This document shows positions 35,808-61,868 of a DNA stretch of 64,000 nucleotides, piece by piece. Location of the stretch: contig NZ_CP102332.1 of the NCBI RefSeq assembly GCF_024600715.1, positions 4,154,001-4,218,000 on the forward strand. The letters are read 5' to 3'. The notes beneath the pieces were generated by a model. It searched no databases. It saw only the letters and a list, made by a program, of their open reading frames with translations, and was not told the DNA's origin. The DNA is from Streptomyces changanensis (GTDB lineage Bacteria > Actinomycetota > Actinomycetes > Streptomycetales > Streptomycetaceae). The translations under genes were made by a program, and so were the position numbers. Each line of letters begins with the position of its first letter. The stretch's first letter is position 1.

Positions 35808-35819
35808 CTACGCGCGTTA
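35808..35819. promoter_or_regulatory. Nucleoside-regulon operator, BMP gene
   Basis: CTACGCGCGTTA keeps the first ten bases of the CTACGCGCGTAG palindrome found upstream of four other nucleoside genes here. It abuts TACGAT (35818-35823), a fitting -10 box for the BMP gene. Confidence 0.65.
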
Positions 35820-35877
35820 CGATCGCCCGCGAAACCAGCGCCGGAAGAGGCGCTTCGGTAGGTCGAAGGAGCCCCCC

Positions 35878-36927
35878 TTGCGCCGGATCACCAGGATCGC
35901 CACCGCGGGTATCGCGTCCGCGGCCCTCGCCCTCAGTGTCACCGCCTGTGGTGGAGACAAGAAGTCGGACGCCGGTGCCGACTCGAAGGGCGGCACGGCC
36001 GCCATCGCGTACGACATCGGTGGTCGCGGCGACCAGTCGTTCAACGACGCCGCCTACGCCGGTCTCGCCAAGGCCGAGAAGGACTTCGGCGTCAAGGGCA
36101 CGGAGGCCGAGCCCAGCGAGGGCGAGGGCGACCCGGACAAGGTCCAGCGCCTCACCTCCCTCGCCCGCGCCGGCAACAACCCGGTGATCGGCGTGGGCTT
36201 CGCGTACGCGCCCGCCATCGCCGAGGTCGCGCCGAAGTTCCCGAACACCACGTTCGGCCTCATCGACGACACGTCGAAGACCGGCAAGAACATCGCCAAC
36301 CTGGTCTTCAACGAGGAGCAGGGCTCCTACCTGGCCGGCGTCGCCGCCGCCAAGGTGACCAAGTCCAACACCGTCGGCTTCATCGGCGGCGTCGAGACCC
36401 CGCTCATCAAGAAGTTCGAGGCGGGCTTCGTCCAGGGCGTCAAGGACACCAACAAGAACGTCAACGTCAAGGTCCAGTACCTGACGCAGCCGCCGGACTT
36501 CGGTGGCTTCTCCAAGCCCGACCTGGGCAAGGCCGCCGCGCAGGGCCAGATCGACGCGGGCGCCGACGTGGTCTACGCCGCCGCCGGCCTCGCCGGCTCC
36601 GGCTCCATCGAGGCCGCGGCGAAGGCGAAGAAGTGGGCCATCGGCGTCGACTCGGACCAGTACAACCAGTCCGGCCTCGCCGCGTACAAGGAGTACATCC
36701 TCACCTCGGTGACCAAGGACGTCTCCGGCTCGGTCTACAACCTGATCAAGTCCGTCAAGGACGGCAAGCCGCAGAGCGGTGAGATCCGCTACGGCCTGGA
36801 CAAGGACGGCGTGGGCCTGGCCCGCTCCAACCCGGCCTTCACCAAGATGACCGACGTCATGACCGCGGTGGACCAGGCCAAGGCCGGCATCACCGCCGGC
36901 AAGATCAAGGTCAAGACCGCTCCGTAA
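35878..36927 (+). CDS. BMP-family nucleoside-binding lipoprotein
   Basis: A 349-residue lipoprotein of the BmpA/PnrA/Med type that binds nucleosides outside the membrane for the ABC transporter encoded next. Signal peptide with lipobox VTAC at about residue 22, then IAYDIGGRGDQSFNDAAYAGL, VIGVGFAYAPAIAEVAPKFPN, SYLAGVAAA and GVDSDQYNQ. The start is TTG 35878 with AAGGAG 6 nt upstream. A long hairpin separates it from the ATPase gene, which has its own operator, so binding protein and transporter may be made at different levels. Confidence 0.9.
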   Translation: MRRITRIATAGIASAALALSVTACGGDKKSDAGADSKGGTAAIAYDIGGRGDQSFNDAAYAGLAKAEKDFGVKGTEAEPSEGEGDPDKVQRLTSLARAGNNPVIGVGFAYAPAIAEVAPKFPNTTFGLIDDTSKTGKNIANLVFNEEQGSYLAGVAAAKVTKSNTVGFIGGVETPLIKKFEAGFVQGVKDTNKNVNVKVQYLTQPPDFGGFSKPDLGKAAAQGQIDAGADVVYAAAGLAGSGSIEAAAKAKKWAIGVDSDQYNQSGLAAYKEYILTSVTKDVSGSVYNLIKSVKDGKPQSGEIRYGLDKDGVGLARSNPAFTKMTDVMTAVDQAKAGITAGKIKVKTAP

Positions 36928-36952
36928 CCCGCAGCCACGGGGCCGGGGCCCC

Positions 36953-37004
36953 GACCCGGGGGTCCGGAGGACGGTGCACCACACCGTTCTCCGGACCCCG
37001 GGTC
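36953..37004 (+). terminator. Strong intercistronic hairpin after the BMP gene
   Basis: GACCCGGGGGTCCGGAGG and CTCCGGACCCCGGGTC arms, extended by ACGGTG/CACCGT, give a stem of more than 20 bp with few mismatches. It ends or attenuates transcription, which would give more binding protein than transporter. Confidence 0.7.
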
Positions 37005-37038
37005 ACGTCCTGGCCATGGGTTTTGGCATTAGGGATCG

Positions 37039-37050
37039 CTACGCGCGTAG
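37039..37050. promoter_or_regulatory. Nucleoside-regulon operator, ABC transporter-cdd operon
   Basis: CTACGCGCGTAG, a perfect 12-bp palindrome, lies 107 bp before the probable start of the ATPase gene and after the BMP terminator. Its presence marks this as a separate regulated promoter. Confidence 0.75.
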
Positions 37051-37156
37051 AAAACTCTCCGGCGCGATAACTTCGGCCACACCGAGCCCCCACCGTGCCC
37101 AGCGTGCCCGCCCGTCCCCCGCTTCTTCGCTCCTTTCTCGCCAAGGAGAGTGCGTC

Positions 37157-38722
37157 ATCAACGCGTCCAGCCCCCCCGCCGTCGAACTGCGCGGCATCAC
37201 CAAGCGCTTCCCCGGTGTCGTCGCCAACCACGACATCCACCTCACCGTCCGCAAGGGCACGGTCCACGCCCTCTGCGGTGAGAACGGCGCCGGCAAGTCG
37301 ACCCTCATGAAGATCCTCTACGGCATGCAGAAGCCGGACGAGGGCACGATCACCATCGACGGCCGAGACGTCACCTTCAGCAGCCCGGCCGACGCCATCG
37401 CCACCGGCATCGGCATGGTCCACCAGCACTTCATGCTGGCGGACAACCTCACCGTCCTGGAGAACGTCGTCCTCGGCGGCGAGAAGCTGTACGGCATCGG
37501 CGCCAAGGCCCGCGACAAGATCAAGGAGATCTCCGACGCGTACGGGCTGAACATCCGCCCGGACGTGCTCGTCGAGCACCTCGGCGTCGCCGACCGCCAG
37601 CGCGTGGAGATCCTCAAGGTCCTCTACCGCGGCGCCCGCACGCTCATCCTGGACGAGCCGACCGCCGTGCTCGTGCCCCAGGAGGTCGAGGCGCTCTTCG
37701 ACAACCTGCGGGAGCTCAAGGCCGAGGGCCTCACCGTCATCTTCATCTCCCACAAGCTGGGCGAGGTGCTGTCCGTCGCCGACGACATCACCGTCATCCG
37801 GCGCGGTACGACCGTCGGCACCGCCGACCCGAGGACGACCACCACCAAGCAGCTCGCCGAGCTGATGGTCGGCGCCGAGCTGCCCTCCCCGGAGACCCGC
37901 GAGTCCACGGTCACCGACGTCCCGATGCTCACGGTCGAAAACCTGCGGCTCGCCCAGACCGACCCCGACGGCGTCGTCCGCGAGGTCCTCGGCGGGATCG
38001 GGTTCACCATCCACAAGGGCGAGGTCATGGGCATCGCTGGCGTGGAGGGCAACGGCCAGACCGAGCTGATCGAAGCCCTCATGGGCATGCGCGACCCCGA
38101 CGGCGGCGTCATCACCCTCGACGGCGCAGACATCTCCCACGCCCCGACGCGCAGGCGCCGGGAGGGCGGCATCGGCTACATCCCCGAGGACCGGCACCGC
38201 CACGGCCTGCTGCTGGAGTCCCCGCTGTGGGAGAACCGCATCCTCGGTCACGTCACCGAGGCCCCCAACAGCAAGCGCGGCGTCCTCGACCTGAAGGCCG
38301 CGCGCCAGGACACCGAGCGGATCGTGCGCGAGTACGACGTGCGCACCCCCGGCATCGAGGTCACCGCGGCCTCCCTGTCCGGCGGCAACCAGCAGAAGCT
38401 GATCGTCGGCCGCGAGATGAGCCACCAGCCGAAGCTGCTGATCGCCGCCCACCCCACCCGCGGTGTGGACGTGGGCGCGCAGGCGCAGATCTGGGACCAG
38501 ATCCGGGAGGCCCGGCGGGAGGGCCTCGCGGTACTGCTGATCTCCGCCGACCTGGACGAGCTGATCGGGCTCTCCGACACCCTGCGGGTGATGTACCGCG
38601 GCCGCCTGGTCGCGGACGCCGACCCCGCCACGATCACCCCCGAGGAGCTGGGCTCTGCCATGACGGGCGCCGCCACCGGTCACCTCGAGCACAACCACGA
38701 CGCGGACGGTGAGGGCCGATGA
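37157..38722 (+). CDS. Nucleoside ABC transporter ATP-binding protein (double NBD)
   Basis: About 521 residues with two fused nucleotide-binding domains of the sugar/nucleoside importer type. NBD1 has Walker A GENGAGKST, HQHFMLADNLTV and LILDEPTAVL. NBD2 has the degenerate GVEGNGQTE, signature LSGGNQQKL and AAHPTRGVDVGA. There is no ATG, GTG or TTG in a sensible place: the only canonical in-frame starts upstream would be read through the operator, and the next one downstream lies after Walker A. AAGGAG (37143-37148) sits 8 nt before ATC 37157, so ATC, or the adjacent GTC, is the probable initiator. It overlaps the permease gene by 4 nt. Confidence 0.85.
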   Translation: MNASSPPAVELRGITKRFPGVVANHDIHLTVRKGTVHALCGENGAGKSTLMKILYGMQKPDEGTITIDGRDVTFSSPADAIATGIGMVHQHFMLADNLTVLENVVLGGEKLYGIGAKARDKIKEISDAYGLNIRPDVLVEHLGVADRQRVEILKVLYRGARTLILDEPTAVLVPQEVEALFDNLRELKAEGLTVIFISHKLGEVLSVADDITVIRRGTTVGTADPRTTTTKQLAELMVGAELPSPETRESTVTDVPMLTVENLRLAQTDPDGVVREVLGGIGFTIHKGEVMGIAGVEGNGQTELIEALMGMRDPDGGVITLDGADISHAPTRRRREGGIGYIPEDRHRHGLLLESPLWENRILGHVTEAPNSKRGVLDLKAARQDTERIVREYDVRTPGIEVTAASLSGGNQQKLIVGREMSHQPKLLIAAHPTRGVDVGAQAQIWDQIREARREGLAVLLISADLDELIGLSDTLRVMYRGRLVADADPATITPEELGSAMTGAATGHLEHNHDADGEGR

Positions 38723-39828
38723 AGAAGTTCGACAAGGACAAGGTGCTGCTGGGTCTGGCGGGCCCGGCGCTCGCCCTGGCCGTGGCCTTCGTCCTGACCT
38801 CGATCGTGCTGCTGGCCTCGGGCCGCGACCCGATCCAGCCGTACGTCCTGATGATGGAGACCGCGGAGTTCCCGGACGTCCAGGTCCTCATCATCAACCA
38901 GACCGGCACGTACTACCTGGCAGCCCTGGCCGTCGCCATCGGCTTCCGGATGAACCTGTTCAACATCGGCGTCGACGGCCAGTACCGCCTCGCGGCGATG
39001 CTCGCCGCCGTCGTCGGTGCCTCCGTCGAGCTGCCCGGGCCGCTGCACCTGCTGCTGATCGTGCTCGTCGCCGTGCTCGTCGGCGCCTTCTGGGCCGGCA
39101 TCGCCGGCTTCCTGAAGACCACCCGCGGGGTCAGCGAGGTCGTCTCCACGATCATGCTGAACGCCATCGCGACCAGCCTGATCGCCTGGATGATCCTGCC
39201 GGCCAACCTCGGCGTCCAGCCCCCCGGCTCGAACGACCTCACCACCGGTGTGATCGCCGAGTCCGGCTGGCTGACCGGCCTCGCCGTCGAGGGCGGCAAC
39301 ATCTACGGCTTCACCTTCGTCGCGTTCGCCCTCGGCGTCGTCTACTGGTTCGTCCTCAACCGCACCCGCTTCGGCTTCGACCTGCGCGCCACGGGCGCCA
39401 GCTCGACCGCCGCGCAGGCGAGCGGCGTCGACGCCAAGAAGATGGTCCTCACCGCGATGCTGCTCTCCGGCGGCGTCGCCGGTCTGACCGGCCTGCCGCT
39501 GCTGCTCGGCCAGACCCACACGTACAGCCTGAGCTTCCCCGCCGGCGTCGGCTTCGTGGGCATCACCGTCGCCCTGCTCGGGCGCAACAGCCCGATCGGC
39601 ATCTTCTTCGCCGCCCTGCTCATCTCCTTCCTGGAGAAGGCGTCCGGATCGGTGATCGACGCGGACTTCGAGAAGGAGATCGCCACGATCATGCAGGGCC
39701 TCATCGTGATCTCGGTCGTCGTGTCGTACGAGGTCGTCCGGCAGTACGGGCTCCGCCGGCAGCAGCAGAAGGTCGGCGAGGAACTTGCCGCCCAGGCCCG
39801 CAAGAACAAGGAGGACGTGGCGGCATGA
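38719..39828 (+). CDS. Nucleoside ABC transporter permease 1
   Basis: A 369-residue permease with eight to ten helices. FRMNLFNIGVDGQYRLAAM and TTRGVSEVVSTIMLN match the BPD_transp_2 family (NupP-like). It starts within the ATPase stop (ATGA) and is coupled to the second permease the same way, so all three subunits are made together. Confidence 0.93.
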   Translation: MKKFDKDKVLLGLAGPALALAVAFVLTSIVLLASGRDPIQPYVLMMETAEFPDVQVLIINQTGTYYLAALAVAIGFRMNLFNIGVDGQYRLAAMLAAVVGASVELPGPLHLLLIVLVAVLVGAFWAGIAGFLKTTRGVSEVVSTIMLNAIATSLIAWMILPANLGVQPPGSNDLTTGVIAESGWLTGLAVEGGNIYGFTFVAFALGVVYWFVLNRTRFGFDLRATGASSTAAQASGVDAKKMVLTAMLLSGGVAGLTGLPLLLGQTHTYSLSFPAGVGFVGITVALLGRNSPIGIFFAALLISFLEKASGSVIDADFEKEIATIMQGLIVISVVVSYEVVRQYGLRRQQQKVGEELAAQARKNKEDVAA

Positions 39829-41105
39829 GCGAGATCGAATCCACGAGCACGGTGACCGCCGCGGGCGCCACCGCGCCGGCCAAGGGCGGGGGGCGCCGCA
39901 AGCTGACCCTGCCGGTCATCCTGCTGTTCGTCGCGGGCGGTCTGCTCCTGTTCTCGCTGGTCCGCGCGGTCAGCGGCGCCGACGACCTGACCTCCGTGGG
40001 CCAGGTGTCCGGCGCCCTCCAGCTCGCCGTGCCGATCGGCCTCGCCGGACTCGGCGGCCTGTGGGCCGAGCGGGCCGGCGTGGTCAACATCGGCCTCGAG
40101 GGCATGATGATCCTCGGCACCTGGTTCGGTGCCTGGGCCGGTTACCAGTGGGGCCCGTGGACCGGTGTGGCCGTCGGCATCCTCGGCGGCGCGCTGGGCG
40201 GCCTGATCCACGCGATCATGACCGTCACGTTCAACGTCAACCACATCGTCTCCGGTGTGGCCATCACCATCCTGGCGACCGGCGCCACCCGCTACCTGTC
40301 GAACTTCACGTTCGCCGAGGCCCCGGGCGGCTCCTCCAAGCAGTCCCCGCGCGTCGAGGGCATCGACCGCATCACCGTCCCGGGGTTGTCGGACTGGCTC
40401 GGCGACCTCCAGGAGAAGCACTGGTTCTTCGTCTCGGACCTGGCGGGCCTGCTCGGCGGCCTGGTCACGAACCTGTCCGTGCTCACCGTCGTCGCCCTGC
40501 TCCTCGTCCCCGGCACCTGGTGGGTCCTGTGGCGCACCGGCTTCGGCCTGCGGCTGCGCTCCTGCGGTGAGAACCCGGTCGCGGCCGAGTCCCTGGGCGT
40601 GAACGTCTACAAGTACAAGTACATCGCGGTCCTCGTCTCCGGCGCCCTCGCCGGCCTCGGCGGCGCCTTCCTCGCGATCGTCTCCACCGGCATCTACCAG
40701 GAGGGCCAGACCGGCGGCCGCGGTTACATCGGCCTCGCCGCGATGATCTTCGGCAACTGGATGCCCGGCGGCCTCGCCCTCGGCGCCGGCCTCTTCGGCT
40801 TCACCGACAGCCTCAAGCTGCGCGGCGGCGCCGAGAACGTCCACGCGATGCTGCTCCTGCTGGCGATCCTGCTGGTCTTCGCGTGCGCCTGGACCCTGTA
40901 CAAGAAGAAGTACACGGCCGCGGTGGTCTCCGCCGTCTTCTCCGCCGTGCTGTTCCTCTGGTACTCCGCCACCGACATCCTGCCCAGCCAGTTCGTCGAC
41001 GCGGCGCCCTACGTCACCACCCTGCTGGTACTGGCGTTGTCGGCGCAGCGGTTGAGGATGCCCAAGGCGAACGGCATGCCGTACAAGAAGGGCCAGGGCA
41101 AGTGA
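39825..41105 (+). CDS. Nucleoside ABC transporter permease 2
   Basis: A 426-residue permease (NupQ-like). After a polar N-terminus, membrane helices begin near residue 27. The signature ERAGVVNIGLEGMMILGTWFG and IMTVTFNVNHIVSGVAI loops are the BPD_transp_2 hallmarks. It overlaps permease 1 by 4 nt and is itself overlapped by cdd (GTGA). Confidence 0.93.
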   Translation: MSEIESTSTVTAAGATAPAKGGGRRKLTLPVILLFVAGGLLLFSLVRAVSGADDLTSVGQVSGALQLAVPIGLAGLGGLWAERAGVVNIGLEGMMILGTWFGAWAGYQWGPWTGVAVGILGGALGGLIHAIMTVTFNVNHIVSGVAITILATGATRYLSNFTFAEAPGGSSKQSPRVEGIDRITVPGLSDWLGDLQEKHWFFVSDLAGLLGGLVTNLSVLTVVALLLVPGTWWVLWRTGFGLRLRSCGENPVAAESLGVNVYKYKYIAVLVSGALAGLGGAFLAIVSTGIYQEGQTGGRGYIGLAAMIFGNWMPGGLALGAGLFGFTDSLKLRGGAENVHAMLLLLAILLVFACAWTLYKKKYTAAVVSAVFSAVLFLWYSATDILPSQFVDAAPYVTTLLVLALSAQRLRMPKANGMPYKKGQGK

Positions 41106-41506
41106 CCCCGGCCGGGCGGTCGTCCTTCGACTGGGAGACCCTGCGCGCCGCCGCCCGGGACGCCATGTCCCGCGCGTACGCGCCGTACTCGGGCTACCCG
41201 GTCGGGGCGGCCGCCGTGGTCGACGACGGCCGCACGGTCACCGGCTGCAACGTCGAGAACGCCTCGTACGGCATCGGCCTGTGCGCCGAGTGCGGGCTCG
41301 TCTCCCAGCTCCAGGTCACGGGCGGCGGCCGGCTCACGCACTTCGCGTGCGTGGACGGGCGCGGCGAGACGCTCGTGCCCTGCGGGCGCTGCCGGCAGCT
41401 CCTCTTCGAGTTCGGCGGCGGCGAGCTGCTGGTGGACACCCCCGACGGGATCCGCACGCTGGACGAGATGCTGCCGCAGGCGTTCGGCCCGAAGCACCTC
41501 ACCTGA
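41102..41506 (+). CDS. cdd: Cytidine deaminase
   Basis: A 134-residue tetrameric-type zinc enzyme converting cytidine or deoxycytidine to uridine forms. It contains APYSGYPVGAA, NVENASYGIGLCAECG with the first zinc Cys and catalytic Glu, and PCGRCRQLLFEF with the other two Cys. It starts at GTG 41102 inside the permease stop, so uptake and deamination are co-produced. A terminator follows. Confidence 0.95.
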   Translation: MTPAGRSSFDWETLRAAARDAMSRAYAPYSGYPVGAAAVVDDGRTVTGCNVENASYGIGLCAECGLVSQLQVTGGGRLTHFACVDGRGETLVPCGRCRQLLFEFGGGELLVDTPDGIRTLDEMLPQAFGPKHLT

Positions 41507-41510
41507 CCGA

Positions 41511-41545: not shown

Positions 41546-41559
41546 CCGCTTTACCATCT

Positions 41560-41571
41560 CTATGCGCGTAG
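41560..41571. promoter_or_regulatory. Nucleoside-regulon operator, deoA
   Basis: CTATGCGCGTAG differs from the palindrome by one base. It lies 39 bp before the deoA ATG and right after TACCAT (41553-41558), a plausible -10, so a bound protein would cover the transcription start. Confidence 0.7.
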
Positions 41572-41609: not shown

Positions 41610-42887
41610 ATGGACGCGATTTCCGTCATCCGCACGAAGCGGGACCGAGGCGAGCTGACCCCCGAGCAGATCGACTGGGTCATCGACGCGTACACGCGCG
41701 GCGAGGTCGCCGACGAGCAGATGTCCGCCCTCGCCATGGCGATCCTGCTCAACGGCATGAACCGCTCGGAGATCGCCCGCTGGACCGCCGCGATGATCGC
41801 CTCCGGCGAGCGGATGGACTTCTCCTCCCTCTCCCGCCCCACGGCGGACAAGCACTCCACCGGCGGCGTCGGCGACAAGATCACCCTGCCGCTCGCCCCG
41901 CTCGTCGCCGCGTGCGGCGCCGCCGTGCCGCAGCTGTCGGGCCGCGGCCTCGGCCACACCGGCGGCACCCTCGACAAGCTGGAGTCCATCCCCGGCTGGC
42001 GCGCGCTGCTCTCCAACGAGGAGATGCTGCACGTCCTCGACACCACCGGCGCCGTGATCTGCGCGGCCGGTGACGGGCTGGCCCCGGCCGACAAGAAGCT
42101 GTACGCGCTGCGCGACGTCACCGGCACGGTCGAGGCGATCCCGCTGATCGCCTCCTCGATCATGTCGAAGAAGATCGCCGAGGGCACCGGTTCGCTGGTC
42201 CTCGACGTGAAGGTCGGCTCCGGCGCCTTCATGAAGACCATCGAGGACGCCCGCGAGCTGGCCTCCACCATGGTGGGCCTGGGCACCGACCACGGCGTGA
42301 GGACCGTCGCCCTCCTCACCGACATGTCGACCCCGCTCGGCCTGACCGCGGGCAACGCCCTGGAGGTCCGCGAGTCCGTCGAGGTCCTCGCCGGCGGCGG
42401 CCCCGCCGACGTCGTGGAGCTCACCGTCGCGCTCGCCCGCGAGATGCTCGACGCGGCCGGCATCAAGGACGCCGACCCGGCGAAGGCCCTCGCCGACGGC
42501 TCCGCCATGGACGTGTGGCGCCGCATGATCGCCGCGCAGGGCGGCGACCCGGACGCCACCCTCCCGGTCGCCCGCGAGCAGCACGTCGTCACGGCCCCGT
42601 CGTCCGGCGTGCTCACCCGCCTCGACGCGTACGGTGTCGGCGTCGCCGCCTGGCGCCTCGGCGCGGGCCGCGCCCGCAAGGAGGACCCCGTGCAGGCCGG
42701 CGCGGGCGTCGAACTGCACGCCAAACCGGGCGACACGGTCACGGCGGGCCAGCCGCTGATGACGCTGCACACGGACACCCCGGAGAAGTTCGACTACGCC
42801 CTGAAGTCCCTGGACGGCACCTACGACGTCGCCCCGGCGGGCACGTCGTACGAGCCGACCCCGGTCGTCCTGGAGCGCATCGCCTGA
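41610..42887 (+). CDS. deoA: Thymidine phosphorylase
   Basis: A 425-residue pyrimidine-nucleoside phosphorylase cleaving thymidine or deoxyuridine to base plus deoxyribose-1-phosphate. Landmarks: RPTADKHSTGGVGDKITLPLAP (quoted from its ends), GRGLGHTGGTLDKLESIPG, the SSIMSKKIAEG loop and DVKVGSGAFMKT. The ATG at 41610 has AAGGA upstream. It has its own operator and is bounded by terminators on both sides, so it is a single-gene unit. Confidence 0.95.
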   Translation: MDAISVIRTKRDRGELTPEQIDWVIDAYTRGEVADEQMSALAMAILLNGMNRSEIARWTAAMIASGERMDFSSLSRPTADKHSTGGVGDKITLPLAPLVAACGAAVPQLSGRGLGHTGGTLDKLESIPGWRALLSNEEMLHVLDTTGAVICAAGDGLAPADKKLYALRDVTGTVEAIPLIASSIMSKKIAEGTGSLVLDVKVGSGAFMKTIEDARELASTMVGLGTDHGVRTVALLTDMSTPLGLTAGNALEVRESVEVLAGGGPADVVELTVALAREMLDAAGIKDADPAKALADGSAMDVWRRMIAAQGGDPDATLPVAREQHVVTAPSSGVLTRLDAYGVGVAAWRLGAGRARKEDPVQAGAGVELHAKPGDTVTAGQPLMTLHTDTPEKFDYALKSLDGTYDVAPAGTSYEPTPVVLERIA

Positions 42888-42906
42888 CCCCTCGCCCGTA
42901 CGGCCT

Positions 42907-45846: not shown

Positions 45847-47145
45847 TCAGCGCGTTCCGCCGGCCGCGACGAGCACGCTCCGCTCCGGTGCCGGCCGGGG
45901 GCCGACGCGCCGCGCCGCCACCCGCGCCCGGTGCGTGCCGTACAGGGTGAGGGAGACGACGCCGAGGACCGCGACCAGCCCGAGCAGGACCGTGCCGCCC
46001 CAACCGGCCCGGTGGTAGGCGACGGCGCCGAGGGTGCCGCCGACGCTGCTGCCGAGGTAGTACGCCGACTGGTACAGGGCGGACGCCTGGGCGCGGCCGG
46101 TGGTCGCGGCCCGGCTCACCGACGACGAGGCGACGGCGTGGCCGGCGAAGAACCCCGCGGTGATCAGGACGAGCCCGCCCAGCACGGCGGTCAGCGACCC
46201 GGACAGCGACAGCAGCAGACCGGCCGCCGTCGTGGCGACGGCCAGGTACAGCGCCCCGCGCCGCCCCATGCGGCCGACGAGCCGCCCGGCCGCGGCCGAG
46301 GCGGCCGTGCCCACCAGGTACACGAGGAACACCGAACCGACGACGCCCTGCGGCAGCGAGAAGGGGGCCTCCACGAGCCGGTAGCCGATGACCGTGTACA
46401 CCGCGCCGAACACCGTCATGAACAGCGCGCCGATGGCGTACAGCCGCATCAGCAGCGGGTCCGACAGGTGCGTGCGCACCGTGCGCGCCAGGGCGCGCGG
46501 GTCGAGGGTGCCCGGCCGGAAGTGGCGGGCGGGGGGAAGCAGCAGCCGGTACGCCACCGCGCACACCACCGCCAGCACGCCGACGGCGGCCAGCCCGGCC
46601 CGCCAGCCCCACAGCTGTGCGGTCCAGCCGGTCACGATCCGCCCGCTCATGCCGCCGACGCTGTTGCCCGCGACGAACAGCCCGATCGCACCGACCAGCG
46701 CCTTCGGACGCACCTCCTCCGCCAAGTACGCCATCGCCGACGCCGGCACCCCGGCCAGCGCCGCGCCCTGCACGGCGCGCAGCGCGACCAGCCACTCCAG
46801 GTCCGGCGCGAACGGCACCAGCAGTCCCACGGCGGAGGCGACCACGAGGGAGGCCGTCATCAGGGCCCGCCGCCCGAACCGCTCCGACAGCGCGCTGAGC
46901 GGCAGGACGCACAGGGCGAGCGCGCCCGTCGCGGCGGAGACGGTCCAGCTGGCGGCCGACGCGGAGACCGCGAAGTCGGCGGAGACGGCGGGCAGCAGGG
47001 CCTGCGTCGAGTAGAGGAGGGCGAACGTCGCGACGCCGGCGGCGAAGAGGGCGAGGCTCATGCGGCGGTGGCCGGGTCGTCCGGGGGCGAGGCGCGTGTC
47101 GGCGTCCACGGGAGCCGTGGACGCCTCGGTACTGGCGGGAGACAT
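45847..47145 (-). CDS. MFS transporter (YnfM/arabinose-efflux type)
   Basis: A 432-residue major-facilitator protein with twelve predicted helices. LYSTQALLPAVSADF in the first helix and LSERFGRRALMT in the loop 2-3 motif, with VGRMGRRGALY as its repeat, are typical of drug/metabolite efflux proteins of this family. It is divergent from a LysR regulator gene across a 63-bp gap, so the LysR protein probably controls it. Confidence 0.88.
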   Translation of the reverse strand: MSPASTEASTAPVDADTRLAPGRPGHRRMSLALFAAGVATFALLYSTQALLPAVSADFAVSASAASWTVSAATGALALCVLPLSALSERFGRRALMTASLVVASAVGLLVPFAPDLEWLVALRAVQGAALAGVPASAMAYLAEEVRPKALVGAIGLFVAGNSVGGMSGRIVTGWTAQLWGWRAGLAAVGVLAVVCAVAYRLLLPPARHFRPGTLDPRALARTVRTHLSDPLLMRLYAIGALFMTVFGAVYTVIGYRLVEAPFSLPQGVVGSVFLVYLVGTAASAAAGRLVGRMGRRGALYLAVATTAAGLLLSLSGSLTAVLGGLVLITAGFFAGHAVASSSVSRAATTGRAQASALYQSAYYLGSSVGGTLGAVAYHRAGWGGTVLLGLVAVLGVVSLTLYGTHRARVAARRVGPRPAPERSVLVAAGGTR

Positions 47146-47208
47146 GCCTCGACCGTACGGAGACGGCCGTTCATGCGTCCAATGCACGGAACGGCTTTAA
47201 TCGTTCCC
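47146..47208. promoter_or_regulatory. Divergent MFS/LysR control region
   Basis: The gap contains GTTC at 47169-47172 and GAAC at 47188-47191 around TGCGTCCAATGCA, an interrupted dyad of the size LysR proteins recognise (T-n11-A). TTTAAT at 47196-47201, 7 nt before ATG 47209, may be the LysR -10. Confidence 0.4.
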
Positions 47209-48171
47209 ATGGTGCATGAGTACAGGCCACAGCCACGGCTGTCACTGAACAGTAACGAAGAAGAAATGGGCCTGCTGCTTGCCCCTCGCCTGGCGTACTT
47301 CGCGGCGGTCGCCCGCCACGAGCACGTGACCCGGGCGGCGCGGGAGACCGGAGTGCCGCAGTCGACCCTGTCGCGCGCGATGGCGCGGCTGGAGGAGGAC
47401 CTCGGCGTCACGCTCTTCGCGCGCCGGGGCCGCGCGCTGTCCCTGACCCCGGCGGGCCGCACGTTCCTCCTCTCCGTGCAGCGGGCCCTCGGCGAGGTGG
47501 AGCGGGCCGCGGAGGCGGTGCGCGCGGACGTCGACCCGACGGCGGGGCGCGTCGCGTTCGGCTTCCTGCACACGATGGGCTCGGAGACCGTCCCGGGCCT
47601 GCTGCGGGCGTTCCGCGTCGACCACCCGAAGGTCCGCTTCACCCTCGTGCAGAACTACGGCGAGGCGATGCTCGAACGCCTGCGCGCCGGTGAGCTCGAC
47701 CTGTGCCTGACCTCCCCGGTGCCGGACGCCCCCGACCTGGTCGCCCGGCGGCTGGACGAGCAGCGGCTGCGGCTCGTCGTACCGGACGACCACCGGCTGG
47801 CCGGCCGCAAGCGCGTCCGCCTGGCGGAGGCGGCCGACGAGGCGTTCGTGACCCTCGAACCGGGGTACGGGCTGCGCCGCATCACCGACGACCTGTGCGC
47901 GGAGGCCGGGTTCCGGCCGCGCGTGGCGTTCGAGGGCGAGGAGGCGGAGACCCTGCGGGGCCTCGTCGCGGCCGGCCTCGGCGTCGCGCTGCTCCCGCCG
48001 CCGGCCGTGCGGCGCCCGGGGGTCGTCGAACTGACGGTGACGGCACCGCGCGCGGCCCGCGAGATCGGCGTCGCCTGGCAGGCGGGCCGCCCGGACACGC
48101 CCCCGGTGGCGGCGTTCAAGCGGTTCCTCCTGTCCCGCCGCGGCAAGCTCCTCGGCGAGGCGGAGCACTAG
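47209..48171 (+). CDS. LysR family transcriptional regulator
   Basis: A 320-residue regulator: winged helix-turn-helix APRLAYFAAVARHEHVTRAA, ETGVPQSTLSRAMARLEEDLGVTLFARRGR (by segments), then a type-2 periplasmic-binding-like effector domain (GRVAFGFLHTMGSETVPGLLRAF to the end). ATG 47209 gives a 19-residue polar leader before the DNA-binding domain; ATG 47266 would start right at MGLLLAPRLAYF. It probably regulates the divergent MFS gene. Confidence 0.88.
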   Translation: MVHEYRPQPRLSLNSNEEEMGLLLAPRLAYFAAVARHEHVTRAARETGVPQSTLSRAMARLEEDLGVTLFARRGRALSLTPAGRTFLLSVQRALGEVERAAEAVRADVDPTAGRVAFGFLHTMGSETVPGLLRAFRVDHPKVRFTLVQNYGEAMLERLRAGELDLCLTSPVPDAPDLVARRLDEQRLRLVVPDDHRLAGRKRVRLAEAADEAFVTLEPGYGLRRITDDLCAEAGFRPRVAFEGEEAETLRGLVAAGLGVALLPPPAVRRPGVVELTVTAPRAAREIGVAWQAGRPDTPPVAAFKRFLLSRRGKLLGEAEH

Positions 48172-49760: not shown

Positions 49761-49772
49761 CTACGCGCGTAG
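49761..49772. promoter_or_regulatory. Nucleoside-regulon operator, add
   Basis: CTACGCGCGTAG, a perfect palindrome, centred 22-23 bp before the add ATG and 4 bp upstream of TACAGT (49777-49782), the likely -10 box. Occupancy would block polymerase. Confidence 0.8.
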
Positions 49773-49788: not shown

Positions 49789-50943
49789 ATGACGAGCCAG
49801 AGCCTCACCACCCCGACCGCGGACCAGCTCCGCCGCGCGCCGAAGGTCCTGCTCCACGACCACCTCGACGGGGGCCTGCGGCCCGGCACGGTCGTCGACC
49901 TCGCCCGCGACGGCGGCTACGCCGGCCTCCCCGAGACCGACCCCGCACGGCTCGGCACCTGGTTCCGCGAGGCCGCCGACTCCGGTTCGCTGGAGCGGTA
50001 CCTGGAGACCTTCGCGCACACCTGCGCCGTCATGCAGACCCGCGACGCCCTCTTCCGCGTCGCCGCCGAGTGCGCCGAGGACCTCGCGGAGGACGGCGTC
50101 GTCTACGCCGAGGTGCGCTACGCCCCCGAGCAGCATCTGGAGGCCGGCCTCACCCTGAACGAGGTCGTGGACGCCGTCAACGAGGGCTTCCGCGAGGGGG
50201 AGCGCCGCGCCCGCGCGAACGGCCACCGCATCCGTGTCGGCGCCCTCCTCACCGCGATGCGGCACGCCGCGCGCTCCCTGGAGATCGCCGAACTGGCCAA
50301 CGCCCACCGGGACGCCGGTGTCGTCGGCTTCGACATCGCCGGCGCCGAGGCGGGCTTCCCGCCCACCCGGCACCTCGACGCCTTCGAGTACCTGAAGCGC
50401 GAGAACAACCACTTCACCATCCACGCCGGTGAGGCGTTCGGGCTGCCGTCGATCTGGCAGGCCCTCCAGTGGTGCGGCGCGGACCGCCTCGGCCACGGCG
50501 TCCGCATCATCGACGACATCGGGATCGCCGACGACGGGACGGTCACGCTGGGCCGCCTCGCCGCGTACGTGCGCGACAAGCGCGTCCCGCTGGAGATGTG
50601 CCCGACCTCCAACCTCCAGACCGGCGCCGCCACCTCGTACGCGGAGCACCCCATCGGCCTGCTGCGCCGCCTGCACTTCCGGGCCACGGTCAACACCGAC
50701 AACCGGCTGATGTCGGGCACCACCCTGAGCCGGGAGTTCGCGCACCTGACCGAGGCGTTCGGCTACACGCTCGACGACGTCCAGTGGTTCACGGTCAACG
50801 CGATGAAGTCGGCGTTCATCCCTTTCGATGAACGACTGGCGATGATCAATGACGTGATCAAGCCGGGCTTCGCCGCGCTGAGATCCGCTTGGCTGTTCGG
50901 GTCGACCGGCCCCACCAGCGGTTCTCCCGCCCAGGACGCCTGA
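49789..50943 (+). CDS. add: Adenosine deaminase
   Basis: A 384-residue zinc enzyme deaminating adenosine or deoxyadenosine to inosine forms. Zinc and catalytic motifs: LLHDHLDGG with His23 and His25, [10 protein letters not shown] with zinc His and catalytic Glu, [21 protein letters not shown] and VNTDN. The ATG at 49789 lies 6 nt after the TACAGT -10 box and has no good Shine-Dalgarno, so the transcript is probably leaderless. The operator sits immediately upstream of the -10. Confidence 0.95.
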
Positions 50944-56798: not shown

Positions 56799-56856
56799 AG
56801 GCAGGGGGGCGGTCCGGGGCCCGGGGGGACCACGGACCGCGCACGGGGGAAACACC

Positions 56857-56890
56857 TGCGCCGGACAAGCTGGGGGGCTTGTCCGGCGCA
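56857..56890. terminator. Bidirectional terminator between sigQ and the kinase gene
   Basis: Perfect 14-bp stem TGCGCCGGACAAGC / GCTTGTCCGGCGCA with a 6-nt loop between convergent genes. Confidence 0.85.
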
Positions 56891-56912
56891 CGCGTGTGCG
56901 GGGGACGGGGCC

Positions 56913-57617
56913 CTACGCCGGCTCGGGCGTCCTCGGCGTGCGGTGACGGCCGGTCGCCGCTGCGGCCAGACGCCCCAGGGCCTCCTCCTTGCCGCAGGGG
57001 TGGGCGCCCAGCTCCGTCTGCCGGGCCACGATCGACCGCTCCGCGCGCATCAGCCGCCAGCCGCGGCGCAGCAGGAACGGCACCGACTTGCGGCCCTCGC
57101 GCAGGTCCCGCAGCAGCCGCCGGCGGAACGTCGTGGACGGCCGGCCGCGCAGGCACAGGGCGTCGGCGAGCACCCCGAGCTCCTCGCAGTGCCGCACCAC
57201 GTCGGCGGCGAAGATGCCTTCCGCGACGAACAGCGGTGTGCGGCCGATGTCCAGGGTCTCGCGGGAGACGCGGGAGCTGGTGGAGATGTCGTACACCGGG
57301 ACCGAGGTGCGGCCGGTGGCGCAGAGCTCGACGATGGCGGACACGGCCGCCTCCGCGTCCCAGGACCCGGGCGAGTCCCAGTCGATGTCCGTGCTGCCGG
57401 GGACGAGGGGCAACGTCGGGTCGTCGCCCTCCTTGTAGAAGTCGTCGAGCCGGAGCACGGGAAGACCGGCACGGGCGGCGAGGGACGACTTGCCGGAGCC
57501 TGAGGGGCCCGCGAGCAGCACGACGCGGGTCGGGATGGGTTGGGAGCTCACGGGACACCAGTGTGAACCATTGCCCCGGTAGGGGGACCCCGTCGGGGAC
57601 CCGTTGGTATCGAGCAT
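56913..57617 (-). CDS. Uridine kinase-like P-loop protein
   Basis: A 234-residue P-loop kinase of the Udk/PRK group: VVLLAGPSGSGKSSLAARAG (Walker A), LRLDDFYKEGDDPTLP, DWDSPGSWD, VPVYDISTS and FVAEGIFAADVV, matching the uridine-kinase order. It may phosphorylate uridine or cytidine, which would fit the nucleoside genes nearby, but it has no regulon palindrome. ATG 57617 has GGAGG 4 nt upstream; GTG 57551 lacks a ribosome-binding site. Confidence 0.85.
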   Translation of the reverse strand: MLDTNGSPTGSPYRGNGSHWCPVSSQPIPTRVVLLAGPSGSGKSSLAARAGLPVLRLDDFYKEGDDPTLPLVPGSTDIDWDSPGSWDAEAAVSAIVELCATGRTSVPVYDISTSSRVSRETLDIGRTPLFVAEGIFAADVVRHCEELGVLADALCLRGRPSTTFRRRLLRDLREGRKSVPFLLRRGWRLMRAERSIVARQTELGAHPCGKEEALGRLAAAATGRHRTPRTPEPA

Positions 57618-57671
57618 CACACCTCCACTACGGTGAGTGCCCGACCGATCACCCACCAGGCAGGAACTCCC

Positions 57672-58007
57672 ATGAACCCCTTGCTGAAGGCCGGACTCGC
57701 CGTCACGGCCGTGGGCGCCGCCCTCGGCGCCGCCGCCGGCACGGCCCAGGCGGCGGACCTGCACGAGGTCGACGCCCAGGCGGCCCTGCAGGCCGTGACG
57801 GCCGCCGTGCCCCACGCGACGGCCCCGGTGAAGAACCTCAAGGTCAACCCGCTGGCGGAGACGGGCGTCGACCCGCTGAACAACGGTGTCGGCACGCAGG
57901 TGTCGGACTTCCGGCCGGTCTCCACGACGTCCGCGACCGGCTCCCTCACCAACGCGCCCAACCTCCCCGTAGCCGGCCCGCTGCTCGGCGGCCTCATCCC
58001 GGGCTGA
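57672..58007 (+). CDS. Small secreted protein, paralogue B
   Basis: A 111-residue protein with a signal peptide (LLKAGLAVTAVGAALGAAAGTAQA) and a mature part with ALQAVTAAVPHATAPV and VAGPLLGGLIPG. It has the same plan as the product at 51082-51402 and no Cys. ATG 57672 has AGGAA 6 nt upstream. It is divergent from the kinase gene across 54 bp. Surface or wall function is inferred only from the signal peptide. Confidence 0.78.
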   Translation: MNPLLKAGLAVTAVGAALGAAAGTAQAADLHEVDAQAALQAVTAAVPHATAPVKNLKVNPLAETGVDPLNNGVGTQVSDFRPVSTTSATGSLTNAPNLPVAGPLLGGLIPG

Positions 58008-58046
58008 CCACCGCCCCCAGCCGGAGCGCAACTCACCCCACCCGAG

Positions 58047-58206
58047 GGCCCGTACGCGGCCCGAGACTCCCCGCACGGGCCCACGGCGGCCGTGAGGGTC
58101 CGTACTGAGCCGATCCCGACACTCCCCGCACGGGCCCACGGCGGCCGTGGAAGGCCCGTACTCAGCCGATCCCGACACTTCCCGCACGGGCCCACGGCGG
58201 TCGGGA
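58047..58206. repeat. About 55-bp tandem repeat, three copies
   Basis: Units containing CCCGCACGGGCCCACGGCGG recur with GCACGGGCCC starting at 58073, 58128 and 58184, so the period is 55-56 bp. Between them stand CCGTACTGAGCCGATCCCG-like stretches. Noncoding; each unit can form a GCACGGGCCC-centred hairpin. Confidence 0.8.
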
Positions 58207-58323
58207 GGGGCCGTGGTGGGTTGCCCCCGCAGGGGTTGGCGGCGTCAGCGGGTTCACTTCCGCGGTACCCGAGGCCGCCGACCCCGAGGAGGTGACCCAC
58301 CGCGGCCCCGACCCCACCCACCG
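58207..58323 (+). repeat. 117-bp dispersed repeat, copy A
   Basis: Nearly identical (about six differences in 117 bp) to the reverse complement of 62112-62227. It contains TTGCCCCCGCAGGGGTTGGC and CGCGGTACCCGAGGCCGCC. Copies A and B flank the deoC-aldehyde dehydrogenase operon as an inverted pair. No coding bias. A dispersed intergenic element or conserved structured RNA is possible. Confidence 0.85.
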
Positions 58324-58475
58324 ACCGGCGCCCCGTGACGTGCCGCGGCAGGCACGGCACGCGCGAACGACCCCACCCACCGACCGGCGCCCCGTGACGT
58401 GCCGCGGCAGGCCGGCAGGCACGGCACGCGCGAACGACCCACCCACCGACCGGCGCCCGGTGACGTGCCGCGGCA
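58311..58475. repeat. 59-66-bp tandem repeat, three copies
   Basis: CCGACCGGCGCC followed by GTGACGTGCCGCGGCAGG recurs at 58321, 58380 and 58446. The second copy has an extra 7-8 bp, and the third has CCGG for CCCG. It begins inside the end of the 117-bp element. Noncoding. Confidence 0.85.
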
Positions 58476-58496
58476 GGCACGCGACCCGAGCACGGA

Positions 58497-58536
58497 ACGG
58501 CCCCGCCTCCCCCGGACGGAGGGAAGGCGGGGCCGT
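58497..58536 (-). terminator. Terminator of the deoC-aldehyde dehydrogenase operon
   Basis: Perfect 12-bp stem ACGGCCCCGCCT / AGGCGGGGCCGT with a 16-nt loop, 22 bp beyond the stop codon of the truncated dehydrogenase gene. Confidence 0.8.
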
Positions 58537-58558
58537 GGTCGTGCGGGCGGCGTGCGGC

Positions 58559-59464
58559 TCAGTACGCCGAGCCGGACGCGCCCAGGGAGCCCGTCGGGTG
58601 CCAGACCGTCTTCGTCTCCAGGAACGCCGTCAGCCGACGCGTACCCGGGTCGGCCGTCCAGTCGGCGCCGCCGTCCACAGCCTGTGGACGCAGGACGCGC
58701 TTGAGGTTGTCGGCGGCCGCGACCTCCAGGTCCCGCGCCAGCTCGGCGTCCGCGCCCGTCAGGTCGATGGCGTTGACGTCCTGGTGCGCGGCGAGCGGCG
58801 CGGCGATCTCCGCCGTACGGCCCGACAGCACGTTCACGACGCCGCCCGGCACGTCCGACGTGGCCAGCACCTCGGCCAGCGACAGCGCCGGCAGCGGGGC
58901 CCGCTCGCTCGCCACGACCACCACGGTGTTGCCGGTCGCGATCACCGGGGCGACGACCGACACCAGACCGAGCAGCGACGACTCCTGCGGCGCCAGCACG
59001 GCGACGACACCCGTCGGCTCCGGCGTGGACAGGTTGAAGTACGGCCCGGAGACCGGGTTGGCGCCGCCGACGACCTGGCTGATCTTGTCCGTCCAGCCCG
59101 CGTACCAGACCCAGCGGTCCACCGCCGCCTCGACGACCTCCGCCGCCTTCGACTTCGACAGGCCCTCGGCGTCGGCCACCTCGCGGACGAACTGGCCGCG
59201 GCGGCCCTCCATCATCTCGGCGACCCGGTACAGGATCTGGCCGCGCAGGTACGCCGTCGAGCCGGCCCAGCCGCCGAACGCCTTGCGCGCGGCGACCACC
59301 GCGTCACGGGCGTCCTTGCGGGAGGAGAGCGGCGCGTTCGCCAGCCACTTGCCCTTGTCGTCGGTCACTTCGTACACCCGGCCGCTCTCGCTGCGGGGGA
59401 ACTTGCCCCCCACGTACAGCTTGTAGGTCTTGAAGACGCTCAGCCGCGTCGCCGTCTCAGACAT
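58559..59464 (-). CDS. Truncated aldehyde dehydrogenase-family protein without catalytic Cys
   Basis: A 301-residue protein covering only the N-terminal NAD-binding part of an aldehyde dehydrogenase: LYVGGKFPRSESGRVYEV, AFGGWAGSTAYLRGQILYR, VVAVLAPQESSLLGLVSVVAPVIATGNTVVVV (by ends), GVVNVLSG. It has no LELGGK Glu motif and no GQxC nucleophile; the end reads TAFLETKTVWHPTG. It starts 8 nt inside the intact dehydrogenase gene, so the two are made together. It may be a structural partner or NAD-binding subunit; inactivity alone is predicted. Confidence 0.85.
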   Translation of the reverse strand: MSETATRLSVFKTYKLYVGGKFPRSESGRVYEVTDDKGKWLANAPLSSRKDARDAVVAARKAFGGWAGSTAYLRGQILYRVAEMMEGRRGQFVREVADAEGLSKSKAAEVVEAAVDRWVWYAGWTDKISQVVGGANPVSGPYFNLSTPEPTGVVAVLAPQESSLLGLVSVVAPVIATGNTVVVVASERAPLPALSLAEVLATSDVPGGVVNVLSGRTAEIAAPLAAHQDVNAIDLTGADAELARDLEVAAADNLKRVLRPQAVDGGADWTADPGTRRLTAFLETKTVWHPTGSLGASGSAY

Positions 59465-60890
59465 CGAGGTACGCCTCCAGACCGTGGCGGCCGCCTTCGC
59501 GGCCGAAGCCCGACTCCTTGTACCCGCCGAACGGCGAGGCCGGGTCCAGCTTGTTGAACGTGTTGGCCCACACGACGCCCGCGCGGAGCCGGTCGGCGAC
59601 CGCGAGCATGCGGGAGCCCTTCTCCGTCCAGACGCCCGCCGACAGGCCGTACTGGCTGTTGTTGGCCTTGGCGACGGCCTCGTCCGGCGTGCGGAACGTC
59701 AGTACCGACAGCACCGGGCCGAAGATCTCGTCGCGGGCGACGGTGTGGGCCTGCGTGACGCCCGTGAAGAGCGTCGGCGCGAACCAGTAGCCGGTGGACG
59801 GCAGCTCGCACGGCGCCGACCAGCGCTCGGCGCCCTCCGCCTCGCCGGTGTCCGCCAGCGCCGTGATGCGGGCCAGCTGCTCGGCGGAGTTGATCGCGCC
59901 GATGTCGGTGTTCTTGTCCAGCGGGTCGCCGAGGCGCAGCGTCGACAGTCGGCGCTTGAGGGAGTCCAGCAGCTCGTCCTGGATGGACTCCTGCACCAGC
60001 AGACGCGATCCGGCGCAGCAGACCTGGCCCTGGTTGAAGAAGATGCCCGTGACGATGCCCTCGACGGCCTGGTCGATCGGGGCGTCGTCGAAGACGATGT
60101 TCGCGCCCTTGCCGCCCAGCTCCAGCGTGAGCTTCTTGCGCGTGCCCGCGACCTGGCGCGCGATGGCCTTGCCGACGGCGGTCGAGCCCGTGAAGGCGAC
60201 CTTGTCGACGTCCGGGTGCTGCACCAGCGCGGCACCGGCGTCACCGTAGCCGGGGAGGATGTTGACGACGCCCTTCGGCAGGCCCGCCTGGCGGCAGATG
60301 TCCGCGAAGAACAGCGCGGAGAGCGGGGTCGTCTCGGCGGGCTTCAGGACGACGGTGTTGCCCGCGGCGAGCGCCGGGGCGATCTTCCACGCGAGCATCA
60401 GCAGGGGGAAGTTCCACGGGATGACCTGGCCGGCCACGCCCAGCGGGCGCGGGTCGGCGCCGAAGCCGGCGTGGGACAGCTTGTCCGCCCAGCCCGCGTA
60501 GTAGAAGAAGTGCCCGGCGACCAGGGGGAGGTCGTGGTCGCGCGTCTCCTTGATCGGCTTGCCGTTGTCCAGCGTCTCCAGGACAGCCAGCTCGCGGGAG
60601 CGCTCCTGGATGATCCGCGCGATGCGGAACAGGTACTTGGCGCGCTCGGAGCCGGGCAGCGCCGACCACTTCTCGAACGCCTTGCGGGCGGCCCGCACGG
60701 CCCGGTCCACGTCCTCGGCGCCGGCCTGGGCGACCTCGGAGAGGACCTCTTCGCTGGAGGGGGAGACGGTCTTGAAGACCTTGCCGTCCGCGGCGTCGGT
60801 GAACTCGCCGTCGATGAACAGGCCGTAGGACGGCGCGATGTCCACGACCGAGCGGGACTCGGGGGCGGGGGCGTACTCGAACTTGGTCAT
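59457..60890 (-). CDS. Aldehyde dehydrogenase (NAD-dependent)
   Basis: A 477-residue full-length dehydrogenase: FIDGEFTDAADGKVF, VIPWNFPLLM, GNTVVLKPAE, FTGSTAVGKAI, LELGGKGANIVFDD with the catalytic Glu, NQGQVCCAGSRLLV with the nucleophilic Cys, and EIFGPVLSVLTF. It starts 5 bp after deoC. DeoC splits deoxyribose-5-phosphate into glyceraldehyde-3-phosphate and acetaldehyde, so oxidation of acetaldehyde to acetate is the natural role in this operon. Confidence 0.92.
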   Translation of the reverse strand: MTKFEYAPAPESRSVVDIAPSYGLFIDGEFTDAADGKVFKTVSPSSEEVLSEVAQAGAEDVDRAVRAARKAFEKWSALPGSERAKYLFRIARIIQERSRELAVLETLDNGKPIKETRDHDLPLVAGHFFYYAGWADKLSHAGFGADPRPLGVAGQVIPWNFPLLMLAWKIAPALAAGNTVVLKPAETTPLSALFFADICRQAGLPKGVVNILPGYGDAGAALVQHPDVDKVAFTGSTAVGKAIARQVAGTRKKLTLELGGKGANIVFDDAPIDQAVEGIVTGIFFNQGQVCCAGSRLLVQESIQDELLDSLKRRLSTLRLGDPLDKNTDIGAINSAEQLARITALADTGEAEGAERWSAPCELPSTGYWFAPTLFTGVTQAHTVARDEIFGPVLSVLTFRTPDEAVAKANNSQYGLSAGVWTEKGSRMLAVADRLRAGVVWANTFNKLDPASPFGGYKESGFGREGGRHGLEAYLDV

Positions 60891-60895
60891 CGTGA

Positions 60896-61837
60896 TCAGT
60901 CCACCGTCACGTAGTCGGGACCGGAGTAGCGTCCGGTGGCCAGCTTCTGACGCTGCATGAGGAGGTCGTTCAGCAGGCTCGACGCGCCGAAGCGGAACCA
61001 GTGGTTGTCCAGCCAGTCCTCGCCGACGGTCTCGTTGACCAGGACCAGGAACTTGAGGGCGTCCTTGGTGGTCCGGATGCCGCCCGCGGGCTTCACCCCG
61101 ATCTGTACCCCGGTCTGGGCGCGGAAGTCGCGCACGGCCTCCAGCATGAGGAGGGTGTTCGCGGGGGTGGCGTTGACGCCGACCTTGCCGGTCGAGGTCT
61201 TGATGAAGTCCGCCCCGGCGATCATGCCGAGCCAGGAGGCGCGGCGGATGTTGTCGTACGTGGAGAGCTCGCCGGTCTCGAAGATGACCTTCAGCCGGGC
61301 GGGGCCGGCGGCCTCCTTCACGGCGCGGATCTCGTCGTAAACCTTGAGGTAGTGGCCCGCGAGGAACGCGCCGCGGTCGATCACCATGTCGATCTCGTCC
61401 GCCCCGGCGGCGACGGCGTCACGCGTGTCCGCGAGCTTGACGTCGAGGGCGGCGCGGCCGGCCGGGAAGGCGGTCGCGACGGAGGCGACCTTCACGTCCG
61501 TACCCGCCAGGCCGGCCTTGGCGGTGGCCACCATGTCGGGGTAGACGCACACGGCGGCCGTGCGCGGCGTGGTGCGGTCGGTGGGATCGGGGTGGACGGC
61601 CTTGGCGGCGAGCGCCCGGACCTTGCCCGGGGTGTCCGCGCCTTCGAGCGTCGTCAGGTCGATCATCGAGATGGCCAGGTCGATGGCGTACGCCTTGGAC
61701 GTGGTCTTGATCGAACGGGTTCCGAGGGACGCGGCGCGCGCTTCGAGACCGACGGCGTCGACGCCGGGCAGCCCGTGGAGGAAGCGGCGCAGTGTGCTGT
61801 CGGACGCGGTCACGTCAGCGAGTGCATTGGTGGGCAT
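60896..61837 (-). CDS. deoC: Deoxyribose-phosphate aldolase
   Basis: A 313-residue class I aldolase cleaving 2-deoxyribose-5-phosphate. IDLTTLEGADTPGKV, VCVYPDMV, KVASVATAFPAG, EIDMVIDRGAFLAG, KVIFETGELS, and GADFIKTSTGK with Schiff-base Lys at about residue 213, then GVKPAGGIRT. It is first in the operon with two dehydrogenase genes. ATG 61837 keeps the usual MPT start; GTG 61843 lies 6 nt after TATGCT, so a leaderless GTG start is equally possible. The promoter carries the nucleoside-regulon palindrome. Confidence 0.95.
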   Translation of the reverse strand: MPTNALADVTASDSTLRRFLHGLPGVDAVGLEARAASLGTRSIKTTSKAYAIDLAISMIDLTTLEGADTPGKVRALAAKAVHPDPTDRTTPRTAAVCVYPDMVATAKAGLAGTDVKVASVATAFPAGRAALDVKLADTRDAVAAGADEIDMVIDRGAFLAGHYLKVYDEIRAVKEAAGPARLKVIFETGELSTYDNIRRASWLGMIAGADFIKTSTGKVGVNATPANTLLMLEAVRDFRAQTGVQIGVKPAGGIRTTKDALKFLVLVNETVGEDWLDNHWFRFGASSLLNDLLMQRQKLATGRYSGPDYVTVD

Positions 61838-61849
61838 GGTCACCAGGGG

Positions 61850-61868
61850 AGCATATCTACGCGCGTAG
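61850..61868 (-). promoter_or_regulatory. deoC -10 box and nucleoside-regulon operator
   Basis: On the minus strand CTACGCGCGTAG (61868-61857, perfect palindrome) is followed by one base and TATGCT (61855-61850), then 6 nt and GTG. The operator therefore sits directly upstream of the -10, as at add. Confidence 0.8.

Follow-up and report, generated by a model that had tools for sequence, protein, structure and literature searches.

A 12-bp palindrome marks a nucleoside regulon in Streptomyces and is probably the operator of a LacI-family protein encoded beside glnR

Results

The window analyzed here, i.e., a stretch of 64,000 nucleotides from Streptomyces changanensis (contig NZ_CP102332.1, positions 4,154,001 to 4,218,000), carries a 12-bp palindrome, CTACGCGCGTAG, in front of genes for the uptake and breakdown of nucleosides. 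To judge from its symmetry, placement, and distribution, the palindrome is most probably the operator of a LacI-family repressor, and the best candidate for this repressor is the product of the gene immediately downstream of glnR (SCO4158 by synteny).

Scanning the window placed exact copies at 37039..37050 (+ strand), 49761..49772 (+ strand), and 61857..61868 (- strand), a one-change site, CTATGCGCGTAG, at 41560..41571 (+ strand), and a two-change site, CTACGCGCGTTA, at 35808..35819 (+ strand); these are the five sites that a first-pass annotation had located there, three of them exact. The first exact copy fronts an operon on the + strand for an ATP-binding cassette (ABC) transporter ATP-binding subunit (37163..38722, with an uncertain start that was re-set by hand from the 36974 of the gene caller), permeases 1 and 2 (38719..39828 and 39825..41105), and the cytidine deaminase Cdd (41102..41506; above the cut-off of NCBIfam NF004064). 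The second precedes the adenosine deaminase gene add (49789..50943, + strand; above that of NF006847), and the third precedes the deoxyribose-phosphate aldolase gene deoC (60896..61813, - strand; above that of TIGR00126, with an ATG further upstream as a possible start). CTATGCGCGTAG lies upstream of deoA, encoding thymidine/pyrimidine-nucleoside phosphorylase (41610..42887, + strand; above the cut-off of NCBIfam NF004490), and CTACGCGCGTTA at the promoter of a gene for a BMP/PnrA-like substrate-binding lipoprotein of a nucleoside-type ABC transporter (35878..36927, + strand; Pfam PF02608).

Under a first-order Markov model of the window, the three exact copies compare with 0.0033 expected and the single one-change copy with 0.20. 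Because there are two further two-change matches in the window (24302 and 26333), the BMP site is indistinguishable from chance by mismatch count alone; we regard it as real because the identical letters are conserved at 71 of the 74 searchable members of a set of 80 named loci around deoA from Streptomyces, Kitasatospora, and allied genera (here and below, denominators are smaller where a contig ends).

A scan of the complete 6.9-Mb genome, as the first-pass annotation had proposed, found the exact motif to be rare and confined to nucleoside genes: there are four copies, all within 33 kb (4191039 to 4223414), and the fourth, 5.4 kb beyond the end of the window, fronts the gene for a purine nucleoside phosphorylase (PNP). 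With at most one change, the motif and its reversed control, GATGCGCGCATC, give 17 matches each, and with at most two changes the control gives more than twice as many as the motif (459 vs 219). There is hence no enrichment in the overall count, but only in the exact copies and the placement. Twelve of the 17 matches with at most one change, at 11 promoters, lie at nucleotide-metabolism genes as judged from gene calls and family hits, and the remaining five (3441632, 3995297, 5022899, 5434646, and 6014818) are taken as chance. The equal counts of 17 would suit a structural or chance element with no regulatory role, a reading to which we give almost no credence: exact copies number 233 across 61 Streptomyces genomes (two to six in each), whereas the reversed pattern has 39; in five further genomes, the 19 exact copies fetched all lie before the same four genes or operons (ABC operon, 4; add, 5; deoC, 5; PNP, 5); and the letters of the BMP site are held by the -10 element.

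In a class-wide draw of genomes, an exact copy was found in all 19 members of the genus and in 9 of 177 others; six exact copies read from four of these nine had no recognizable nucleoside gene nearby. At single promoters, the ABC site (at most one change) is present in 64 of 75 loci, two further ABC sites (L090 and L099) lying outside the searched range, the exact add site in 57 of 67, and the exact deoC site in all five other genomes looked at. Neither outcome that the first-pass annotation had named as refuting its reading, a motif frequent at unrelated genes or one not conserved at these promoters in other species, was observed: the exact motif is rare, occurs in 61 of 61 Streptomyces genomes, and recurs at these promoters in other species, although the deoA site is present in only 32 of 80 loci, leaving 48 deoA promoters without one. 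Eleven exact copies were fetched from other Streptomyces as lying apparently apart from the cluster, nine of which are at nucleoside or purS genes (an adenosine deaminase paralogue, 5; ABC, 2; purS, 1; PNP, 1); at the other two (L168 and L173), no nucleoside gene was recognized.

Two side observations concern the distribution of these sequences. In five Streptomyces genomes (L166, L167, L169, L170, and L171, at about position 3000), an exact CTACGCGCGTAG runs across codons 3-7 of one more adenosine deaminase gene (product beginning MTATRV), and may be an intragenic operator or a coding coincidence. The reversed control, for its part, occurs in four to nine exact copies per genome in actinobacterial genomes of 2-4 Mb (G139, G149, G188, and G206 of family f31; G196, G205, and G231 of family f29), where it is perhaps an operator of its own.

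The sites overlap or adjoin apparent core promoter elements, as repressor operators do, a placement that fits steric repression and also the earlier proposal that one repressor acts at all sites; the elements are consensus matches rather than mapped starts, and the -10 of the ABC operon is unclear. At the BMP promoter, a -10-like hexamer (TACGAT in this genome) starts at palindrome position 11 and reads TANNNT in 71 of 71 loci, all variation being confined to the N positions; the constraint that this hexamer places on the letters also explains the asymmetry of the right arm. The add operator begins 28 bp before the ATG and is followed after 4 bp by TACAGT; among the 57 loci with the site, at least 51 (52 in the tally) have a TANNNT at a distance of 3-4 bp behind the palindrome, and in 51 the ATG comes 16 nt beyond the palindrome, an arrangement that suggests a leaderless start. 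A TANNNT hexamer follows the palindrome by 1 bp at deoC (TATGCT on the minus strand) and by 12 bp at PNP in this genome, and, in the 10 loci listed out of 30, by 14 bp at purS; at these three promoters, the operator would cover the spacer or the -35.

The regulon includes the five units first described and extends further than had been claimed, to PNP, two nucleotidases, purSQ, and probably pyrimidine catabolism. One-change sites in this genome precede a nucleotidase gene whose product is nearest to 2',3'-cyclic-nucleotide phosphodiesterase models (below their cut-offs) and where two copies lie 15 bp apart, a second nucleotidase gene beside one that we take to be mycothiol-synthase-like, purSQ, an NCS2 permease gene, and an operon for a carbon-nitrogen hydrolase, an aminotransferase, and a dihydropyrimidinase. 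The dihydropyrimidinase is above its NCBIfam cut-off and the hydrolase is presumably a beta-ureidopropionase; pyrimidine catabolism probably belongs to the regulon. The purS site is conserved in 30 of 30 loci, the first nucleotidase site in 27 of 30 with at most one change (three with two changes), and the second in 18 of 20 (two with two changes), but the loci were either hand-picked or simply the nearest relatives that the searches gave, and are therefore not independent samples.

Within this genome, purSQ is the sole purine-synthesis unit recognized at sites with at most one change. Because the purS sites are imperfect in all 30 loci (an exact one occurs in one other genome, L165), regulation of purSQ may be partial or of opposite sign. 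Divergent from purS is a small gene (L022:3426-3758, L165:3215-3532) whose product looks to us like an Lsr2-type nucleoid protein and whose promoter might therefore be within reach of the purS operator as well.

A further one-change site, TTACGCGCGTAG, lies in the divergent promoter of a locus (L017) that holds a GntR-family regulator, a second adenosine deaminase gene (add2), and a UriT-like transporter; counterparts of this locus have a match with at most two changes, counted irrespective of position, in six of nine cases. The GntR protein, encoded next to add2 and divergently from the transporter, would with this site be a natural choice of repressor, yet a close relative (E below 1e-80) is present in only 9 of 61 genomes as against 61 of 61 for the motif. 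It is therefore excluded by its spread as the general regulator and can at most be a member of the regulon; we put its chance of being the repressor next to nil.

Which family of regulator is involved is suggested by the palindrome itself. Its positions 6-7 (CG) are unvarying in the aligned site sets, although these were chosen by similarity, which favors such a result. Even palindromes with a central CG are characteristic of sites for LacI-family transcription factors, being found for 1173 of 1303 factors, with lengths of 16-22 (PMC4052901). The present 12-bp palindrome is likewise even and has this unvarying center.

The regulator, left open in the first-pass annotation, now has a candidate, proposed from sequence comparison: the LacI-family protein encoded beside glnR (L283, G000:C1:3125831-3126832; the neighbor is recognized by Pfam GlnR_1st). 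It has a LacI helix-turn-helix (HTH) and a periplasmic-binding-like sensor (PF00356, PF13377, and PF00532 above cut-off), the latter nearest to the RbsR, PurR, and CytR models, with none of the cut-offs reached (118-181 bits on the CytR/UriR/PurR/RbsR equivalog models vs NCBIfam cut-offs of 382-550). S. changanensis has 20 LacI-type HTHs, and comparison with five Streptomyces genomes holding 7-9 leaves as core genes L277, L280 with its paralogue L279, L284, L286, and L283, the last recovered in one of the five genomes through the 61-genome search; L270 was rejected as core, having counterparts of 61-64% identity in three of the five genomes and best matches of 38-40% in the other two. All 61 Streptomyces genomes encode the candidate, with identities of at least 79%; in 177 genomes of other genera it has only 14 hits at E <= 1e-60, of about 39-45% identity, a spread that resembles that of the motif. 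Its own promoter keeps only the half-site GCGTAGACT (GCGTAG on a -10-like TAGACT) in 29 of 30 loci; autoregulation is found for 72% of LacI-family factors (PMC4052901).

That another core regulator binds the sites, be it L277, L280, L284, L286, or a protein of a different family, strikes us as quite improbable. The four LacI-family proteins have counterparts in all five LacI-poor genomes compared, and the survey covered LacI-family regulators plus the GntR and DeoR candidates only; against this, no readable upstream region holds a match better than three changes (readable in 6 of 6 loci for L284, 6 of 7 for L280 and its paralogue, 5 of 6 for L277, and only 2 of 6 for L286), and L277 has an AACGTT-centered palindrome of its own. 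The latter, GACAACGTTGTC, lies upstream of L277 and its counterparts in all five readable loci and is probably the operator of that protein.

Relatives of the glnR-adjacent candidate from outside the genus provide the strongest indication. In a tree of 75 sequences, all 14 group with it in a single clade (support 0.999), and for 11 of them it is the best match in the S. changanensis genome. A nucleoside hydrolase or adenosine deaminase gene is present at 10 of their 14 loci; two others (L423 and L426) have a PfkB kinase gene and an apparent ribose-type ABC system. The pattern CTAC.CG.GTAG, with at most one change, gives 23 hits in these loci, 20 of them intergenic, as against 2-13 hits, 0-5 of them intergenic, for 14 control palindromes. 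Operators of this class are found beside most of the nucleoside-linked LacI relatives, and in several the promoter of the LacI gene itself has a fuller site. The arms vary with helix residues of the protein: they are mainly CAAC with SPAVVSY (4 of 4 loci), mainly CTA with STAVVSY (7 of 8, L433 having no site), and mixed with SVAVVSY (2 of 2), a tally from which single sites depart and for which the search class allowed both arms. This covariation suggests a small specificity code for the LacI subgroup.

The relatives also bear on a DeoR-family regulator (SCO4920-like, L016:12779-13699) encoded 2.4 kb from the PNP site, which might bind the palindrome in the manner of E. coli DeoR, whose inducer is deoxyribose-5-phosphate. 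Its gene is present in 61 of 61 genomes, lies near PNP in S. changanensis, and encodes a DeoR sensor domain. It is nevertheless unlikely to be the repressor: it belongs to a different binding family and would not account for operators of this class next to the LacI relatives, it scores 70 bits against a cut-off of 244 on the NCBIfam DeoR equivalog model, and in all 30 loci the best match upstream of its gene has three or more changes (a count by which the LacI candidate does little better, although it keeps the half-site). The region upstream of the DeoR-family gene is itself conserved (L378-L407), without a good copy of the motif.

Among the other genes of the window, two aldehyde dehydrogenase-family genes lie downstream of deoC on the - strand (58559..59464 and 59457..60890), no curated cut-off being reached for either product. 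Between deoA and add, the stretch 45847-48171 holds a LysR-family regulator (Pfam) and, by eye, a divergent transporter-like gene; no motif within two changes is present in this stretch.

Discussion

Binding, repression, and a ligand are what we infer from the computed sites, their conservation and overlap with promoters, the spread of the candidate, and its nucleoside-linked relatives. In such a model, a repressor dimer would occupy the -35, the spacer, or the -10 in the core promoter of every unit and thereby block RNA polymerase. When nucleosides or their ribose or deoxyribose products become available, a ligand would release the repressor, and nucleotidases, nucleoside importers, deaminases, phosphorylases, and DeoC would be made together. 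The first-pass annotation had suggested a nucleoside or sugar phosphate as the probable inducer. The LacI-family repressor probably acts at purSQ too.

Several observations weigh against assigning this role to the protein beside glnR. It is encoded some 1.07 Mb away from the main cluster, and in 5 of 61 genomes the match is either in two pieces (G009) or flagged with one in-frame stop (G007, G027, G030, and G031). Its genus-only spread is common to many core genes. The left arm in its own promoter is degenerate, and the full motif is mostly matched there with three changes at best, so that by mismatch count this promoter is no better than some of the DeoR upstream regions and one of those of L286. 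As for the relatives, three (L422-L424) are slightly closer to another LacI protein of S. changanensis, two (L432 and L433) have no nucleoside gene, L433 also lacking a site, and several loci come from near relatives of each other, which weakens the independence of the counts. Finally, a repressor with a purely catabolic role would not be expected to have purSQ under its control.

Lysed mycelium is recycled by Streptomyces itself. The genus also ties purine pools to guanosine tetraphosphate (ppGpp) and antibiotics (PMC6627660), and a switch for nucleic-acid use would therefore be a useful handle. Tentatively, and as a possibility that goes well beyond the operator assignment, the SCO4158-type LacI protein may be a genus-wide switch that places nucleotide dephosphorylation, nucleoside import and breakdown, pyrimidine ring catabolism, and de novo purine synthesis (purSQ) under one ligand and, from its position beside glnR, links nucleic-acid recycling to nitrogen control and possibly to the onset of antibiotic production. 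If true, the nucleic acids recycled could come, for example, from lysed hyphae. A genus that includes major antibiotic producers gains a defined nucleoside regulon.

A paper by Meng et al. (2012) reportedly deals with SCO4158, to go by its title in a reference list. Passages of other papers place SCO4158, a LacI regulator, downstream of glnR and consider it a possible regulator of that gene (PMC9739823), list it with an ArgR binding site (PMC5839063), and tabulate it and SCO4920 among the regulators of a carbon-catabolite study (PMC4848846); SCO4920 centers a network module (PMC3224704), and single genes of the regulon are mentioned elsewhere (PMC7244524, PMC7157823, and PMC3293853). A core regulator with no regulon assigned in these passages thereby gains a concrete candidate role. 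We found no published description of the regulon in a literature search that left RegPrecise and subscription journals outside its range, and a search with the letters of the 12-mer returned, by title, only the topics of DNA structure and GapR.

The closest functional parallel is provided by the CytR/DeoR nucleoside regulons of E. coli, in which repressors coordinate nucleoside transport, deaminases, phosphorylases, and DeoC. The Streptomyces regulon joins the same functions but differs in having a LacI protein of another subgroup (163 bits against a cut-off of 436 on the CytR NCBIfam model), a 12-bp central-CG palindrome, and nucleotidases and purSQ among its targets. E. coli PurR is likewise a LacI-family regulator, of purine synthesis, and the candidate reaches 177 bits on its model, but the cut-off of 501 bits is not attained and the Streptomyces targets are mainly catabolic. 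UriR and RbsR of Corynebacterium exemplify LacI-family control of uridine and ribose use in an actinobacterium (PMC4052901); UriR, however, is described there as a local regulator, whereas the Streptomyces sites are scattered over the chromosome, and on the UriR model, with its cut-off of 550 bits, the candidate reaches 118. Bacillus NupR also regulates nucleoside uptake but belongs to the GntR family (PMC9430930). LacI control of nucleoside use is already known (PMC4052901), and the Streptomyces regulon would be an unusually broad case of it.

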